Origin: an uncultured Pleurocapsa sp.
GTDB taxonomy: Bacteria; Cyanobacteriota; Cyanobacteriia; Cyanobacteriales; Xenococcaceae
Direction of reading: 5' to 3'
Assembly: GCA_938015355.1 (NCBI GenBank)
Contig: CALLPS010000002.1
Span: 1-46,140 of the forward strand
DNA: 46,140 nt
Each line of letters starts with the position of its first letter. Positions within the stretch are counted from its first letter, which is position 1. Below are positions 640-38,683 of this stretch, piece after piece. The notes beneath the pieces are model-generated. The model worked only from the letters and a program-made list of their open reading frames with translations, had not been told where the DNA came from and ran no database searches. The position numbers and the translations under genes were made by a program.

Positions 640-1950
640 ATGAATGAGGAACAGTATTCAATACTACTGGTTGATGATGACGAAGTTGATCGCCTTACGG
701 TTAAACGAGCTTTTAAAAAAGCTAATTTTTCGGCAATATTAACTGAAGTACAAAATGGTCAAGAAGCACTAGCTAATCTAGCATCAAAAGCGCAAGATTG
801 TGACTCTAACTGTGCAGAAAAAGAGATTGACAACTCTAAAACTAATGGAGATAAAAGCAATCTACTACAGGTTGCCACCACCACTAATCAGGATTTCGAT
901 TTAGTTTTACTGGATTATCGTTTGCCAGATATTAATGGTTTAAATTTAATTGCCGAAATCAAAGCTTTAAATTTAGATTTACCCATAATTGTTCTCACTG
1001 GTCAAGGTGATGAAGAGATTGCTGTAGAAATTATGAAAGCTGGGGCGGCAGACTACATATCAAAAGGGAAAATAGAGCCAGAAAGTTTAGCCAAAGCAAT
1101 TACTAGTGCGATTCGCATCCACAAAGCAGAGCAAGCAGTAGAAGCTGTCAATGAACGTCTTCGCGCTGGTAACGAATTATTGTTACTCAAAAATCAAGAA
1201 TTAGAAAAACAGAAGCAACAAATAAAATTACAAAACATAAAATTACAAGAATCCTATAATCTTAAGTCTGAGTTTTTAGCAACCATGTCCCACGAATTAC
1301 GCACGCCAATGAATGCGATTATGGGCTTTTCTCAACTGTTACTGCGCCAGTATCCCGATCCTCTTTCCGAACAGCAACAAAATCTAATTCAGCGGATTTT
1401 CAATAATGGAAAAAACTTACTGGACATGATTAATGAAATGCTTGATTTTTCTAAAATCGAAGCAGGAAAACTAGATTTAAATCCACAAAAACTAGATCTA
1501 AATTTTTTAATTAAATTAACTGTGGAAGAATTACGTTCTTTAGCTTTACAAAAAAATCTTAGTTTAGTCACCGATATCCAACTAGAGGATAGTTTCTTAG
1601 TTCAAGATTCTAACTTTATTAAACGAACTTTAATCAACTTGCTTTCCAATGCCCTCAAGTTTACCGAATCGGGTGGAGTGATAGTCAGAGCTTGGGAAAT
1701 AGAGGATACAACCATTGCTATTGCCGTTACTGACACAGGAATCGGCATTGCCTCAGAAGATCAAAACAAAATATTTCAGGCTTTCAGACAAGGAGATCAA
1801 ACTTTTACCCGCGAACATGCAGGAACAGGTTTGGGGTTAGCCATTTCGGAATCTTTAGTTAAGATGATGAAAGGCAAAATTTTAGTGAATAGCGAATTAG
1901 GTGAAGGGTCTACATTTATAGTTGAAATCCCTCGTAAGTACGATGCTTAG
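640..1950 (+). CDS. Hybrid REC - histidine kinase
   Basis: REC (LLVDDDEVD, LLDYRLPDINGL), then HisKA (FLATMSHELRTPMNAIMGFSQ) and HATPase (LINLLSNALKFT, DTGIGI, GTGLGLAIS). ORF track starts at TTG 634; ATG at 640 is likelier. Confidence 0.92.
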   Translation: MNEEQYSILLVDDDEVDRLTVKRAFKKANFSAILTEVQNGQEALANLASKAQDCDSNCAEKEIDNSKTNGDKSNLLQVATTTNQDFDLVLLDYRLPDINGLNLIAEIKALNLDLPIIVLTGQGDEEIAVEIMKAGAADYISKGKIEPESLAKAITSAIRIHKAEQAVEAVNERLRAGNELLLLKNQELEKQKQQIKLQNIKLQESYNLKSEFLATMSHELRTPMNAIMGFSQLLLRQYPDPLSEQQQNLIQRIFNNGKNLLDMINEMLDFSKIEAGKLDLNPQKLDLNFLIKLTVEELRSLALQKNLSLVTDIQLEDSFLVQDSNFIKRTLINLLSNALKFTESGGVIVRAWEIEDTTIAIAVTDTGIGIASEDQNKIFQAFRQGDQTFTREHAGTGLGLAISESLVKMMKGKILVNSELGEGSTFIVEIPRKYDA

Positions 1951-2011
1951 GTAAATAGATATTATTTAGTATGATAGATAATTTGTCTTTTTTATAACTT
2001 TTTCATAAACA

Positions 2012-3100
2012 ATGTCTGTCCCAACAACTATCAAAAATAATTATATTCTGGCAGTAGATGATATTCCCGACAACCTTCTCTTAGTTCAGCTAGCCCTTGA
2101 ACAAGAAGGACATCAAGTCGTTTTAGCTCATAATGGAGAGACAGCCTTAGCACATATAAAACAAGCTCCTCCTAGTCTTATTTTGCTAGATGTAATGATG
2201 CCTGGAATGGATGGTTATGAGGTAACGCGACGCATCCGTGAGGATAAAAATATTCCTTTTATCCCTATCTTGTTAGTTACAGCCAGAGTAGAATCTAGCC
2301 TGGTAACGGGATTAGATGCGGGGGCAGATGAATTTGTCCGCAAGCCTTTTCAGATCGACGAATTACAGGCTAGGGTACGATCTATGTTACGTCTCAAGGA
2401 AACCATCGATCAGCGAGAAAATTTTGTTTCTTGTTTGACTCATGACCTACGCACCCCCCTAGTAGCAGCCAACCGTATGCTGGATCTGATTTTGCAACAA
2501 GCCTTTGGCGATGTTACCTGTGAACAACAAGAAGCGATCGCCAATATTGTCAGTAGTAATGATAATATGTTGGAGATGTTGAACACCCTCCTAGAAACTC
2601 ATCACTATGAATTAGGGCAAAAAACCCTTAGTTTTATTCCTGTCGATTTAAAACAATTAGTTGATGAAGTTATTACCGAACTTAAGCCCCTGGCAATGGA
2701 CAAGGATATTGAGCTTTCAAATGATTCTGCCGATAATGTTCCTGAAATCAAAGGAGATCGTCTAGAGTTACGCCGAGTAATTACTAACCTGGTTAGCAAT
2801 GCCATCAAGTTTACTGATCAGGGAAGTGTCAAAGTGGCTCTATCTCAAAGCGATTCGGATGTAATTATTCAAGTAAAGGATACGGGAATTGGCATATCAC
2901 CCCAAGAACAACAAGCTATTTTCCAACGGTATCATCAAGGAAATCATCGACGGGCAGGAAAAGGTTTAGGGTTATATCTTTGTCAACAAATTATCAATGC
3001 TCATCAGGGAAAACTGACAGTAGAATCTCAAAGTAATTTAGATAATAGTAATTTAGATAACAGTGGAACTACTTTTACTTGTTCTCTGCCTAAATCTTAG
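2012..3100 (+). CDS. REC - histidine kinase
   Basis: REC (LAVDDIPDN, LLDVMMPGMDGYEV) plus HisKA (FVSCLTHDLRTPL) and HATPase (NLVSNAIKFTDQG, DTGIGI, GLGLYL). Confidence 0.92.
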   Translation: MSVPTTIKNNYILAVDDIPDNLLLVQLALEQEGHQVVLAHNGETALAHIKQAPPSLILLDVMMPGMDGYEVTRRIREDKNIPFIPILLVTARVESSLVTGLDAGADEFVRKPFQIDELQARVRSMLRLKETIDQRENFVSCLTHDLRTPLVAANRMLDLILQQAFGDVTCEQQEAIANIVSSNDNMLEMLNTLLETHHYELGQKTLSFIPVDLKQLVDEVITELKPLAMDKDIELSNDSADNVPEIKGDRLELRRVITNLVSNAIKFTDQGSVKVALSQSDSDVIIQVKDTGIGISPQEQQAIFQRYHQGNHRRAGKGLGLYLCQQIINAHQGKLTVESQSNLDNSNLDNSGTTFTCSLPKS

Positions 3101-3157
3101 ATCTGCCCTTAACTAGCCCTAAACAAAGGACTAGTTTCGCATCATATGCCGTATTTT

Positions 3158-4636
3158 CTATGATTTGGGAACCCAAACCGATACCGAACCTGCTAAACAG
3201 CGGAAGTTCGCCCAACCTTCATCATTAGTAGTAGTAGGTTCATCGATATGTTTGGTTAGATCGATATAAGTTTGGTTTGGTTGACCGATTTCCATCCATT
3301 TTGTACCTTGATCACCATTACTCAAAACTACTGCTATGCCCCCCGGATGATTCTCATCACCTAGTCTTGTCCAGCCAATACAGTTTCCATGGTCGAAGTA
3401 ATCATACTGATCACCATAGGCGAGATCTTGACGAGCCTGGAGAAACTTATCAATTAGCCATTGATGGGAATCCATCCAAATCTCGTATTCTTGTCCATCT
3501 CTGCCAACATCCTGGTAATGTGCGCCATAATAGTCAGCATAGAAAATGCAAGGATAACCATCTCTTCTTAGCAAAATTAGAGCATAGGCTAAAGGTTTAA
3601 ACCAGGCTTCAACCACCGACTCTAAAGCTTGCAAAGGCTGAGAATCATGATTCTCTACTAGAGTTACTGCTAGGGTAGGTTGGTCTTTAACTAAGGTGCC
3701 ATCAAATATTTGACGCATATCAAAGTTATTACCCGTTTTACTCGCCTCGGTAAAGTTATAGTGTAAAGGTGCATCAAATAAAGCCACATCCCCACCAGTC
3801 TCACCAATAAAGTGGTGTAGAGCTTCAATATTTCCCGACCAATATTCTCCCACAGCAAATAGAGGTTTTCCCGAACGTTCTCTTACATGGTTTAGCCAAT
3901 TAGGAAAAAATCCTGCTTTGACATGTTTAACGGCATCGAAACGGAAACCATCGACATCGGTAGTGTCTACATACCATTCACCCCAATACATAAGTTCTCC
4001 CCTGACCTCAGGGTGTTCGACATCGAGGTCGCAACCCATCAGATAATCAAAGGAACCCTTGGCTAAATCTACCTGTTCGTCAAATTGCTTATCTTTAAAT
4101 AGATAGATAGCATCAGCATCTCCGTCATAGGCATTATAATCAACCGCATCGAAATGATACCAATGCCATTGTAAGCTGGAATACTTATCCCCACGCCCAG
4201 GAAAAGTAAAGTGAGTCCAGGTTTTTACTGTCTGCAAATCTCCGATTGCTTCGTGGCGATTGTGGGGATTCATTGGTGTTGCTTCAACTTCTTCTTCCTG
4301 ATCCCCCCCCAGCTTATGATTTAAGACCACGTCTGCATAGATGCGGATGCCAGCCTCTTGAGCTACCTTAATCGCATTAATATATTCATCTTTTGTACCG
4401 TATTTAGTTCTAACCGAACCTTTTTGGTCAAATTCACCCAAATCGAACATATCGTAGACACCATAACCTACGTCATAACCACCAGCAGTACCTTTATAGG
4501 CAGGAGGCAGCCACAAAGAAGTAACTCCGATCTTTGCCAATTCCGCAGCATTTTCTGCCACTTGATTCCATAAACTACCATCGGGTTCATTGTACCAATG
4601 GAAATATTGCATCATTACGCCGTTAAATTCAGACAT
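3158..4636 (-). CDS. Alpha-amylase, GH13 (cytoplasmic type)
   Basis: GVMMQYFHWY, DVVLNHK, VDGFRFDAVKHV, VGEYWSGN, LVENHDSQP GH13 motifs. Confidence 0.93.
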   Translation of the reverse strand: MSEFNGVMMQYFHWYNEPDGSLWNQVAENAAELAKIGVTSLWLPPAYKGTAGGYDVGYGVYDMFDLGEFDQKGSVRTKYGTKDEYINAIKVAQEAGIRIYADVVLNHKLGGDQEEEVEATPMNPHNRHEAIGDLQTVKTWTHFTFPGRGDKYSSLQWHWYHFDAVDYNAYDGDADAIYLFKDKQFDEQVDLAKGSFDYLMGCDLDVEHPEVRGELMYWGEWYVDTTDVDGFRFDAVKHVKAGFFPNWLNHVRERSGKPLFAVGEYWSGNIEALHHFIGETGGDVALFDAPLHYNFTEASKTGNNFDMRQIFDGTLVKDQPTLAVTLVENHDSQPLQALESVVEAWFKPLAYALILLRRDGYPCIFYADYYGAHYQDVGRDGQEYEIWMDSHQWLIDKFLQARQDLAYGDQYDYFDHGNCIGWTRLGDENHPGGIAVVLSNGDQGTKWMEIGQPNQTYIDLTKHIDEPTTTNDEGWANFRCLAGSVSVWVPKS

Positions 4637-24552: not shown

Positions 24553-25803
24553 ATGAGTATTTTTGAGAGTTTGGAGTCCGAAGTCCGAAGCTATTGTCGA
24601 TTATTTCCTACGGTTTTTACCAAAGCGGTGGGAGATCAACTGATTGATGAGAATGGACGCTCTTATATAGATTTCTTATCAGGTGCAGGAGCTCTTAACT
24701 ACGGGCATAATAATCCCAAACTGAAACAGAGTCTTCTTGAATACATTGAGTCAGATGCCATCACTCACAGCCTCGATATGTTCACTTCTGCCAAGCAAAA
24801 GTTTCTCCAACGTTTCTCTGAAGTAATCTTAAAGCCCCGAGGACTTGAATATAAGGTTATGTTTACGGGCCCTACGGGAACAAACTCGGCGGAGGCAGCT
24901 TTGAAACTAGCCCGTAAAGTTACAGGTCGCCAAACAGTGATCTGTTTCACCAAAGGCTATCATGGTCATACATTAGGAGCTTTAGCTGTTACACCTAATC
25001 CTGTCTATCAGAAGGCTGCGGGTATTCCCCTTGGTCACCACGTTAGAACTGTAGCTTTTGAGGACGAAAATAGCGCCCAAGATACTAGTCTTGATGACTT
25101 AGAAAAACTGCTCGATGACTTAAGCCAAAATCAAGATAAACCCGCAGCAGTTATTCTGGAAACTGTTCAATCTGAGGGAGGAATTAATGTTGCGAGCATT
25201 CCTTGGCTGAAGCGCCTTGCCCAGATCACTAAAGAGCGAGAAGTTTTGCTAATTGTTGATGATATTAAAGTAGGGTGTGGTCGCACAGGTCCTTTCTTTA
25301 GCTTTGAGCGAGCGGGAATAAAGCCTGACCTAGTTTGTCTGGCAAAATCTTTAAGTGCTTATGGAAACCCCATGGCGCTCGTGCTGATTCGACCAGACTT
25401 AGACTGTTGGAAACCAGGAGAACACAGCGGAACATTTAGAGGCAATAATCTAGCCTTTGTGACGGCTGCTGCTGCTATTGATGAGTACTGGCAGACTGAT
25501 GCTTTTACCCAAGAGATAGCGCATAAAGGGGAGGTGATGAAGAAGCGACTCCAAGAAATGATCTCGCAATATACAGAACTTGGAGGGAAACACCGAGGAT
25601 TAGGTTTGATTCAAGGAATCGCTTGTCAACAATCAGGAGTAGCGAAAAAGGTCAGTAATGAGGCTTTTAAGCGGGGTTTGATCTTTGAACCCATGGGAGT
25701 GAACAAAGAAGTTATTAATCTTCAGTCTACATTAACGATAGATGTTGATACTTTAAACCAGGGACTGGATATTTTGGATAAAAGCATCAGTGCGGCTCTT
25801 TGA
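24553..25803 (+). CDS. Class III aminotransferase, EctB-like (diaminobutyrate-2-oxoglutarate type)
   Basis: YCRLFPTVF, YIDFLSGAGALNYGHNNP, GPTGTNSAEAALKLARK, GYHGHTLGAL, VDDIKVGCGRTGPFFSFE. Confidence 0.85.
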   Translation: MSIFESLESEVRSYCRLFPTVFTKAVGDQLIDENGRSYIDFLSGAGALNYGHNNPKLKQSLLEYIESDAITHSLDMFTSAKQKFLQRFSEVILKPRGLEYKVMFTGPTGTNSAEAALKLARKVTGRQTVICFTKGYHGHTLGALAVTPNPVYQKAAGIPLGHHVRTVAFEDENSAQDTSLDDLEKLLDDLSQNQDKPAAVILETVQSEGGINVASIPWLKRLAQITKEREVLLIVDDIKVGCGRTGPFFSFERAGIKPDLVCLAKSLSAYGNPMALVLIRPDLDCWKPGEHSGTFRGNNLAFVTAAAAIDEYWQTDAFTQEIAHKGEVMKKRLQEMISQYTELGGKHRGLGLIQGIACQQSGVAKKVSNEAFKRGLIFEPMGVNKEVINLQSTLTIDVDTLNQGLDILDKSISAAL

Positions 25804-25815
25804 CGCTCCGCCGTC

Positions 25816-26037
25816 CTATAAGGACGGGGATTCCTGGTTCAGCGACCCATCGTAACCTGGCAGGATTGCTCCAACCAAACTAGAGGATTTGTTCCAATCT
25901 TTTTCCTTGGTCGCACGATATATTCTATGTCTTAAGTTTTTTACCTTCTTATAGGATTTAATCCAGTCAATTGTAGACCAGTTAATTCTATCTTCTAGGT
26001 TTTTAGCTCCGATGTCATTAATGACCCTATCTTTCAC
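25816..26037 (-). pseudogene. Group II intron reverse transcriptase N-terminal fragment fused to a different C-terminal end
   Basis: WSTIDWIKSYKKVKNLRHRIYRATKEKDWNK resembles intron RT N-termini, then switches to SSSLVGAILPGYDGSLNQESPSL, consistent with a TnpB C-terminus encoded in the RE hairpin. Confidence 0.7.
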
Positions 26038-26639
26038 TATCTTTTGACTCTTACATTAAATTCTTATCGTGATGATTTGCTTAGAAGTTAGCTCGGTTTC
26101 CCTTAGTGATTAACACTATCTACCCACTTATACCTTTTGGCTTTCGTGTTGCCTTTCGGCTGGTAGCATTCGCTTTTTCCAGCATCCTTTATCCTCTGAA
26201 TAATTCCGTCTTGCTTGCGCTCGACCTACTCAACTTTTGAGAACTCATAGGGTTTACCGTGTTTCGCATTTCCGTAGATTTATCTCTTTTAGGTTTCATC
26301 TATTCCCCGACGGGACTTGCGTTCTATCGGTGAAGGCACACTTCTAAATCCTCACCCTACCCGTTTACCATTTTGGTTCAAGCGTACAGCCTATTGCGCT
26401 TGTTATTACCTGACGAGATTTTGTAAATGATTTACTTGCGTTAACCTTGAGAGATTTTCCCTTGCTCCCTTAACCAGTTTTAGGCTACTAGCGTGGGCTA
26501 CTTTAGTGACTTGCATTCCGATGTATTCATTACTTACTAACACCGTAGTCGGAGTCAGGGACTCTTTTACTTGGGAATAACTCGATAGAATGAGTTAGGC
26601 ATTGCTGCTACTACATGAGAAGCGACTTTCACGTCGCAC
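26038..26639 (-). other. Group II intron 5' ribozyme region (domains I-III expected)
   Basis: Minus strand begins GTGCGACGTGAAAGTCGC at 26639; about 600 nt before the RT start codon, the usual layout. Confidence 0.65.
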
Positions 26640-26939
26640 AAACCGTGGGTATCCCTTTTTACCTGAAATATTCTTCTTGCAATTATCAAAAAAACGATTG
26701 ATTGCACGAAGCACTCTTTCTACCGCTGTTTGACAGGCATGAGAGTTCAATTCCTTAACGAAAGAATATTCGGCTCTCAGAAATGTATTATGTCTGAACA
26801 TTTCAGTTTTACCTATGGCACGATTATCCATCCAAAAGCGAAGCACTTTATTACGAACAAATTGTGTTGTTCTGATTGCCTCTTCTATGGATTGAATCTG
26901 ACTGGCAACTGGTTTAATTCTATATTCGAGAACAAACAT
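26595..26939 (-). pseudogene. tnpB N-terminal fragment
   Basis: MFVLEYRIKP...IEEAIRTTQFVRNKVLRFWMDN...ELNSHACQTAVERVLRAINRFFDNCKK...GKKGYPRF; true homology ends at the intron junction near 26640. Confidence 0.85.
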
Positions 26940-27035
26940 TTTGATACTAGGGAGTTAGGTATCAAAATACATGATACCAGATAAAGCCGTCTTAGAAAGA
27001 CGGGGCTTGTATCCCATTACCTTCGGTCAAACTGA

Positions 27036-27983
27036 CTATCCTAAACCAGCAACTTCTAACATTTCCGTCAGTACTTTGCCATGGAATTCCCAAGGGAAAG
27101 TTTCAATTGTAAGCTCCTGGACTCCTGTATCACCATCTACTGCTGGTCCTTCATAGACTAGCTTAGTTAAAATGTGTTGATCCATCTCTAAAGTTAATCC
27201 CTCCATTAACTTAGATTTCAAGTCAGGTCGAAGCAAAGCAATAGCTGTAAGTAAACCGATTGCTCCCCAGTTAGAAACACCGCAAACAATGAGATGATTG
27301 CAGGGAATACTACAAGCAATTTTGGCTCCCGTACTGACACCTTGGGCAATGATTTCTTGAGAAAGTGTTCCCATTCCGAGTTCATTGCCCGCATCCCCAA
27401 TGCCGATGGAGATAAGTCCACTGAGGGTAAAGAGGAGATGTAAAGGAGCTGTTTCAGCAGTGATATCCTTGCCGATCATATTCCAGACAATACCATCGTA
27501 ACCAGGCCCCGCTCTTTCAATAGCAATAACATGGGAAACTGGAAGATCACTATTGCGCCATGAATTCACAATAGAAACAATAGATGCATCTTCACTAGTT
27601 GCATCTACAGGAACAACATCTATGGGAACATTCCCAGGTATACCTGCTGCCTGGGCTGCAACCTTGACCGCATTAAGACATAAAGGATCTGTTACTAAAC
27701 GGACAGGTATTCCCACTCTCAGCAATCCTGCTGCTATGTGAGCGCTACCTATAGGGCCATCGGTTTCCGCTGCTGGGGGGTTGCCTCGGGGAACAAAAAA
27801 GCCTGTCATAATCGCTACGTGGGGAGCTGGATGCTCGGCGATGGAGCGAGCAGCACTTAGTAAACCGCCCTTGGCAGCCTCGATAATTGGCTCTATTTTA
27901 TTCCCGACATCTCGCCCACAGATGTTTTCAATTTGTTCTATCTTGGCTAAGACTGGTTGCCCATTTTCTATAACAGCATTCAT
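27036..27983 (-). CDS. Stand-alone DUF4392 (D-glutamate cyclase-like) protein
   Basis: HVAIMTGFFVPRGNPPAAETDGPIGSAHIAAGLLRVGIPVRLVTD; NELGMG; SNWGA. Confidence 0.82.
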   Translation of the reverse strand: MNAVIENGQPVLAKIEQIENICGRDVGNKIEPIIEAAKGGLLSAARSIAEHPAPHVAIMTGFFVPRGNPPAAETDGPIGSAHIAAGLLRVGIPVRLVTDPLCLNAVKVAAQAAGIPGNVPIDVVPVDATSEDASIVSIVNSWRNSDLPVSHVIAIERAGPGYDGIVWNMIGKDITAETAPLHLLFTLSGLISIGIGDAGNELGMGTLSQEIIAQGVSTGAKIACSIPCNHLIVCGVSNWGAIGLLTAIALLRPDLKSKLMEGLTLEMDQHILTKLVYEGPAVDGDTGVQELTIETFPWEFHGKVLTEMLEVAGLG

Positions 27984-27993
27984 AAGCAATTAT

Positions 27994-38321: not shown

Positions 38322-38613
38322 AGATTAAATTGTTTACCTGCTAATTTTGAGCGAAAAAGACACTAGAAACTGTACCATATGCTCCATTGTTCTAGATATT
38401 ATTGTATACATATTAAAAACAACTTATAGTCGTTTAAACTTGCTATAAACAGCATAGAATTAGTAAATTCAATCTTCTATCATAGTCTCTAGTCAATAAT
38501 AAGCCTAAAGTTATTGACTAAGCGAGGTGACAATCATTAAACTGTTACAACACTAACGATGTTTATTTAGCAAATAGGTGAAAATTCTAGTTGTGTGAGG
38601 AGTGAACTATCTA

Positions 38614-38664
38614 AAGGCTTGTTTTTGGGATCGAAACACGGACAGAACCCCAAAGGCAAGCCTT
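38614..38664. other. Intergenic long hairpin adjacent to an 11-nt Yfr1-core match
   Basis: AAGGCTTG (38614-38621) / CAAGCCTT (38657-38664), inner TTTGGG/CCCAAA; GTGTGAGGAGT at 38593-38603 is the reverse complement of ACTCCTCACAC. Confidence 0.5.
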
Positions 38665-38683
38665 CTCACTTTTATATAAGCTC

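Follow-up and report, generated by a model that had tools for sequence, protein, structure and literature searches.

Positions 27025 to 25800 on the minus strand of the window (the whole 46,140-nt stretch of uncultured Pleurocapsa DNA that was analysed) carry, in this order, the left end of an IS605-type element, the first part of its tnpB gene, the 5' part of a group II intron, and the last part of tnpB together with the right end of the element (Table 1). Very probably this is a dead nested element, in which a group II intron invaded an IS200/IS605-type tnpB and a single internal deletion of about 2.5 kb then followed. Homology switches sharply at two points, 26640/26639 and 25888/25887, each of which is defined by intact relatives. 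The locus is a clean fossil of a mobile element within another mobile element, and it illustrates how a single deletion can fuse two reading frames into a chimera open to misannotation as a gene.

Table 1. Features of the nested element in the window and, in the last three rows, tnpB genes of other cyanobacteria that contain group II introns.
Feature	Position	Strand	Evidence
IS200/IS605-type tnpB element, both ends present	25800-27025	minus	TTGAC adjoining left end, GTCAA at right end
TTGAC target pentanucleotide, host side, adjoining left end	27026-27030	minus	Motif comparison with other copies
IS605-type left end with hairpins	26940-27025	minus	Fold against shuffles; conservation in relatives
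tnpB codons 1-100, the 5' exon, ending PRF	26640-26939	minus	NF040570 match; 79-82% identity to intact tnpB
Group II intron 5' part, GTGCGACG..., without domains V/VI	25888-26639	minus	66% identity over ~700 nt to intact introns; covariation
Intron reverse transcriptase (RT), first 50 codons	25888-26037	minus	RVT_N; 66% identity to intact G016 RT
Deletion junction, RT joined in frame to tnpB 3' end	25887-25888	minus	Intact-element homology starts here in every copy aligned
tnpB last 23 codons and stop	25816-25887	minus	Match to TnpB C-termini of intact elements
tnpB 3' end and right end, terminal hairpin, ending GTCAA	25800-25887	minus	C362 copy 97% identical; fold; end comparison
L272 (locus of L181)	800-2855		Exon 1 ...SRQREEFA, exon 2 KRIALRVVQSHDLIAYEDL; exact rejoin
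L274 (L264)	710-4515		RT-bearing intron before NAAINILKRGLSTVG; 3' exon from about residue 362
L128, found separately	Intron 5' end at 2986	minus	TnpB profile 118-272, RT intron, then 275-389

Extent and ends of the element

An earlier note made from the sequence alone had located the element correctly, but its limits, given as 25804-27020, are corrected here to 25800-27025. Hairpins lie at both ends beside the target pentanucleotide, as is characteristic of IS200/IS605 elements, with TTGAC on the left and GTCAA on the right. TTGAC stands beside the left end in seven of the eight other copies compared (CTGAC in the eighth, L055), and all six right ends compared terminate in GTCAA. Compared with shuffled sequences, the left end has a far more stable fold (z -4.2) and the right end, taken alone, only a somewhat more stable one (z -2.0).

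The open reading frame (ORF) at 26595-26939 matches the TnpB profile NF040570 (E 6.4e-12, profile positions 2-107 of 389), and a DNA search of 60 related genomes gave an E of 2e-103 for the tnpB part. Intact elements (L040, L042, L043 and L055) span about 1.33-1.36 kb from one of these ends to the other and contain a single open tnpB frame of some 410 codons. TnpB of the window element is incomplete: nothing but codons 1-100 and the final 23 is left, about 280 codons are gone, and a complete RuvC domain and zinc finger are not present. Genes for Y1 TnpA occur elsewhere in the same genome and, since both ends remain, the element might still be mobilised by TnpA supplied in trans; passive mobilisation of this kind apart, the sequence suggests no likely function.

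A second internally deleted copy, a miniature derivative of about 298 bp, is found on contig C362 of the same genome (L037:2313-2610), where the last part of tnpB is in frame. Like such miniature IS200/IS605 derivatives, the element in the window keeps both ends and lacks its middle; unlike them, it also carries an intron fragment. A truncated TnpB on contig C69 proved unrelated: it is a piece of another TnpB and shows no group II intron start.

The exon-intron boundary

Comparison with intact tnpB genes bears out the proposal of the earlier note that the N-terminal part of tnpB is interrupted at 26639 by a canonical group II intron 5' end. Similarity to the intact genes of G003 and G012 (79-82% identity) ends at 26640, between the codons for PRF and K, and the aligned query spans that stop there are 1-391 in G003, 41-391 in G012 and 149-391 in G015. 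The intron begins at the very next base, 26639, with a 5' end of the GUGYG type that is identical at its start to intact introns of G016. The next tnpB codon in the relatives is AAG, giving PRFKHNTRSVEY; beyond the break the intact relatives read AAGCACAATACCCGTTCAGTTGAATAC (KHNTRSVEY) and the window reads GTGCGACGTGAAAGTCGC. The intron would have inserted in sense orientation between the codons TTT and AAG. Many 6-nt candidates exist for the EBS1/IBS1 pairing. Among 387 genomes of the phylum and 27 of the family (overlapping sets), the exon-intron junction pattern GGNTAYCCNMGNTTYGTGYGAC occurs in the window only.

The group II intron fragment

The first ~750 nt of the fragment align with an intact 2.4-kb intron of a same-family genome. 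The region from about 26579 to 25892 aligns over ~700 nt with three loci of G016, of the same family (E 1.6e-67), and this value and that of the tnpB part together exclude chance similarity. The G016 intron starts GTGCGACGCAGTAAGTCGC behind three different 5' flanks. Two of its copies agree at every position for 2397 nt before they diverge, and this defines the extent of the intron; the third is identical over all of the 1.7 kb compared. Its RT is intact, and domains V and VI (D5/D6) lie some 2.3 kb from the intron start, at intron positions ~2319-2396 (RF00029 match).

An alignment of nine introns yielded 86 predicted base pairs, and compensatory change occurs at 66. The structure was predicted from this same alignment, which biases the count in its favour, and its pairs were taken as a whole and not domain by domain. 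Folded alone, the 752-nt intron part is weakly better than shuffles (z -1.8). A covariance search had been put forward as a check on the intron, and the Rfam scan of the window with group II models gave no match, either to D1-D4 or to RF00029. As a control, four intact relatives of the intron were scanned and matched RF00029 only, again with no D1-D4 model. Since the D1-D4 models miss intact relatives too and D5/D6 are deleted here, the absence of an Rfam match is uninformative and no evidence against an intron; the positive evidence is the homology and the compensatory changes.

The 3' splice site, like D5/D6, is present in the intact relatives and gone from the window. The intron, which presumably once spliced, cannot do so without D5/D6, so that TnpB retains only about 100 of its own residues. 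Judged by its sequence, the intron is a remnant and not an active group II member. Its RT starts at 26037, about 600 nt downstream of the intron 5' end as had been described, and residues 20-57 of the ORF at 25816-26037 match RVT_N (PF13655, E 4.8e-9, above the curated cut-off). Only the N-terminal 50 codons of an intron-encoded RT are there and the catalytic body is absent.

The deletion junction and the chimeric reading frame

Intron homology ends at 25892-25888, and homology to tnpB and the right end begins at 25887 or 25888 in all elements aligned. The junction reads GATTGGAACAAA / TCCTCTAGTTTGGTTGG, the intact intron CAGTGGAATCGGGTCAGAAGCC and intact tnpB GGAGATTTGTCCTCTAGCTTGG. Here the RT frame enters the TnpB frame (KEKDWNK / SSSLVGAIL), and the chimeric ORF ends in SSSLVGAILPGYDGSLNQESPSL before its stop codon, matching, in the TnpB frame, TnpB C-termini such as SSSLVGEILPGYDESVNQESPSF, also followed by a stop.

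Most of what the earlier note had said of this region is upheld. Both ORFs, 26595-26939 and 25816-26037, are present as described, with profile matches to TnpB and RVT_N, respectively; RT likeness ends after KEKDWNK, and the ORF then finishes as tnpB within the right-end hairpin, its end matching TnpB and not RT. The note had also held that a deletion took the RT body, the intron 3' end and most of tnpB and left a chimeric ORF, and comparison with intact relatives shows the same losses, with about 1.6 kb of intron and about 0.85 kb of tnpB missing (approximate sizes). For the alignment that it had suggested to intact copies in the same genome, this 81% complete assembly offered none, so relatives served to map the junction. 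One illegitimate deletion of ~2.5 kb would have joined RT codon ~50 to the final 23 tnpB codons. No microhomology with the sequences of the relatives, which stand in for the true parental intron, is visible at the junction, and this suggests illegitimate joining. The 73-aa chimeric ORF is regarded as a by-product, an accident of frame.

At least two deletions might be supposed instead, with tnpB miniaturised first and an intron arriving later to lose its 3' end separately. Miniature copies of the element do arise, as on C362, and PMC5894124 records that introns lose the 3' end independently, but intron and tnpB here break off at one and the same point, 25888/25887, without any 3' exon sequence in between. 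One event is simpler, and we consider separate deletions improbable. An assembly artefact, in which an intron-bearing tnpB copy was misjoined to the right end of another element copy, is more improbable still. The draft genome is indeed 81% complete, in 464 contigs, with many TnpB copies, and the right end of the copy on C362 is 97% identical; however, judged against relatives, the junction offers no bases shared by intron and tnpB on which an assembler could have gone wrong, the right end of the window element differs from the C362 copy at three of 89 bases and so is not that copy, and the contig runs on through both flanking genes.

A single deletion within an intron-bearing tnpB thus stays the preferred explanation. 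An intact or intermediate copy of the same nesting was found in none of the 387 phylum and 27 family genomes, so the ancestor is one that we infer. The source genome itself has no intact copy of the nested element in its assembled part; it has 27 TnpB matches, the one in the window included, and six RT matches, none of which apparently belongs to the lineage of this intron (the nearest shares 45% identity with the G016 RT).

Comparison with known systems

The element adds an example with an IS605-type host to a known kind of nesting and decay, and its exact junction was seen in none of the other genomes searched. According to PMC5894124, the group II intron RmInt1 inhabits ISRm2011-2, an IS630-family element of Sinorhizobium meliloti. 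The same paper describes loss of the RT along with the 3' end as a general way in which bacterial group II introns decay, and relatives of RmInt1 include the fragment FRE652, truncated at position 653. The window likewise has a group II intron inside an insertion sequence, with the 3' end and RT lost. It differs from RmInt1 in that the host is an IS605-type tnpB and not an IS630-family element, there is a single copy where RmInt1 homes in many, and the deletion also took most of the host gene.

IStrons, as presented in PMC4227781, similarly combine a self-splicing intron type with an insertion sequence, but theirs is a group I intron and they spread as a unit, whereas the intron here is group II, internal and inactive; the element is not an IStron. 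It could still be imagined as a selected chimera, IStron-like with a group II intron and moving or acting as a unit, given that the element ends are present and the RT reading frame continues without a shift into that of TnpB. This is hardly credible, as the element is a single copy whose junction recurs in none of the genomes searched, D5/D6 are absent, and an in-frame join has a one-in-three chance.

Intron-in-tnpB nesting in other cyanobacteria

Group II introns lie within tnpB, in sense orientation as in the dead element of the window, in three other cyanobacteria (L128, L272 and L274). Insertion points and introns differ from those in the window, and D5/D6 are retained. Recurrence was sampled in the 1 kb downstream of 100 RF00029 matches from the same taxonomic order, 97 of which gave more than 150 nt. 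TnpB sequence stood directly downstream as a 3' exon in three of the 97 (L181, L250 and L264), and a whole tnpB started just downstream in three more; these counts come from the best-scoring matches, not a random draw, and are biased to high scorers with no random-gene background. In L275, L276 and L277 a group II intron immediately precedes a tnpB that is otherwise whole, and has the same orientation as that gene.

The L272 gene runs through TnpB residues 5-266, the intron, and then residue 264 onward, and no RT was found in this intron. The upstream part of tnpB in L274 is frameshifted, and L273 (L250) is a weak case without a TnpB upstream exon. Predicted splicing would rejoin the exons in frame in L272 and L128. 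The insertion points differ and the cases therefore look like independent invasions, so that nesting of group II introns in tnpB would appear from these sequences to recur. A literature search covering titles, abstracts and a few passages found no description of a group II intron in tnpB.

It is conceivable, if rather unlikely, that cyanobacterial tnpB genes are invaded time and again by group II introns in the sense orientation, forming a group II counterpart of IStrons, and that the window holds a decayed case. If so, splicing would preserve the function of the guided endonuclease and might do the same for its guide RNA. Introns at several tnpB sites in cyanobacteria resemble the intron/TnpB pairing of IStrons and are worth a survey.

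Genomic neighbourhood

A search of 26 other family genomes gave no match to the neighbouring 317-aa gene at 27036-27989, which leaves no empty site for comparison and hints that this gene region was acquired horizontally. On the other side of the element, the plus-strand aminotransferase gene (24553-25803) has its stop codon, 25801-25803, inside the right end, so that the insertion set the last codons of the gene. Further along the window, the plus strand carries a match to the Rfam Cyano-1 RNA (38589-38668) that scores 41.5 bits, barely above the gathering score of 41.
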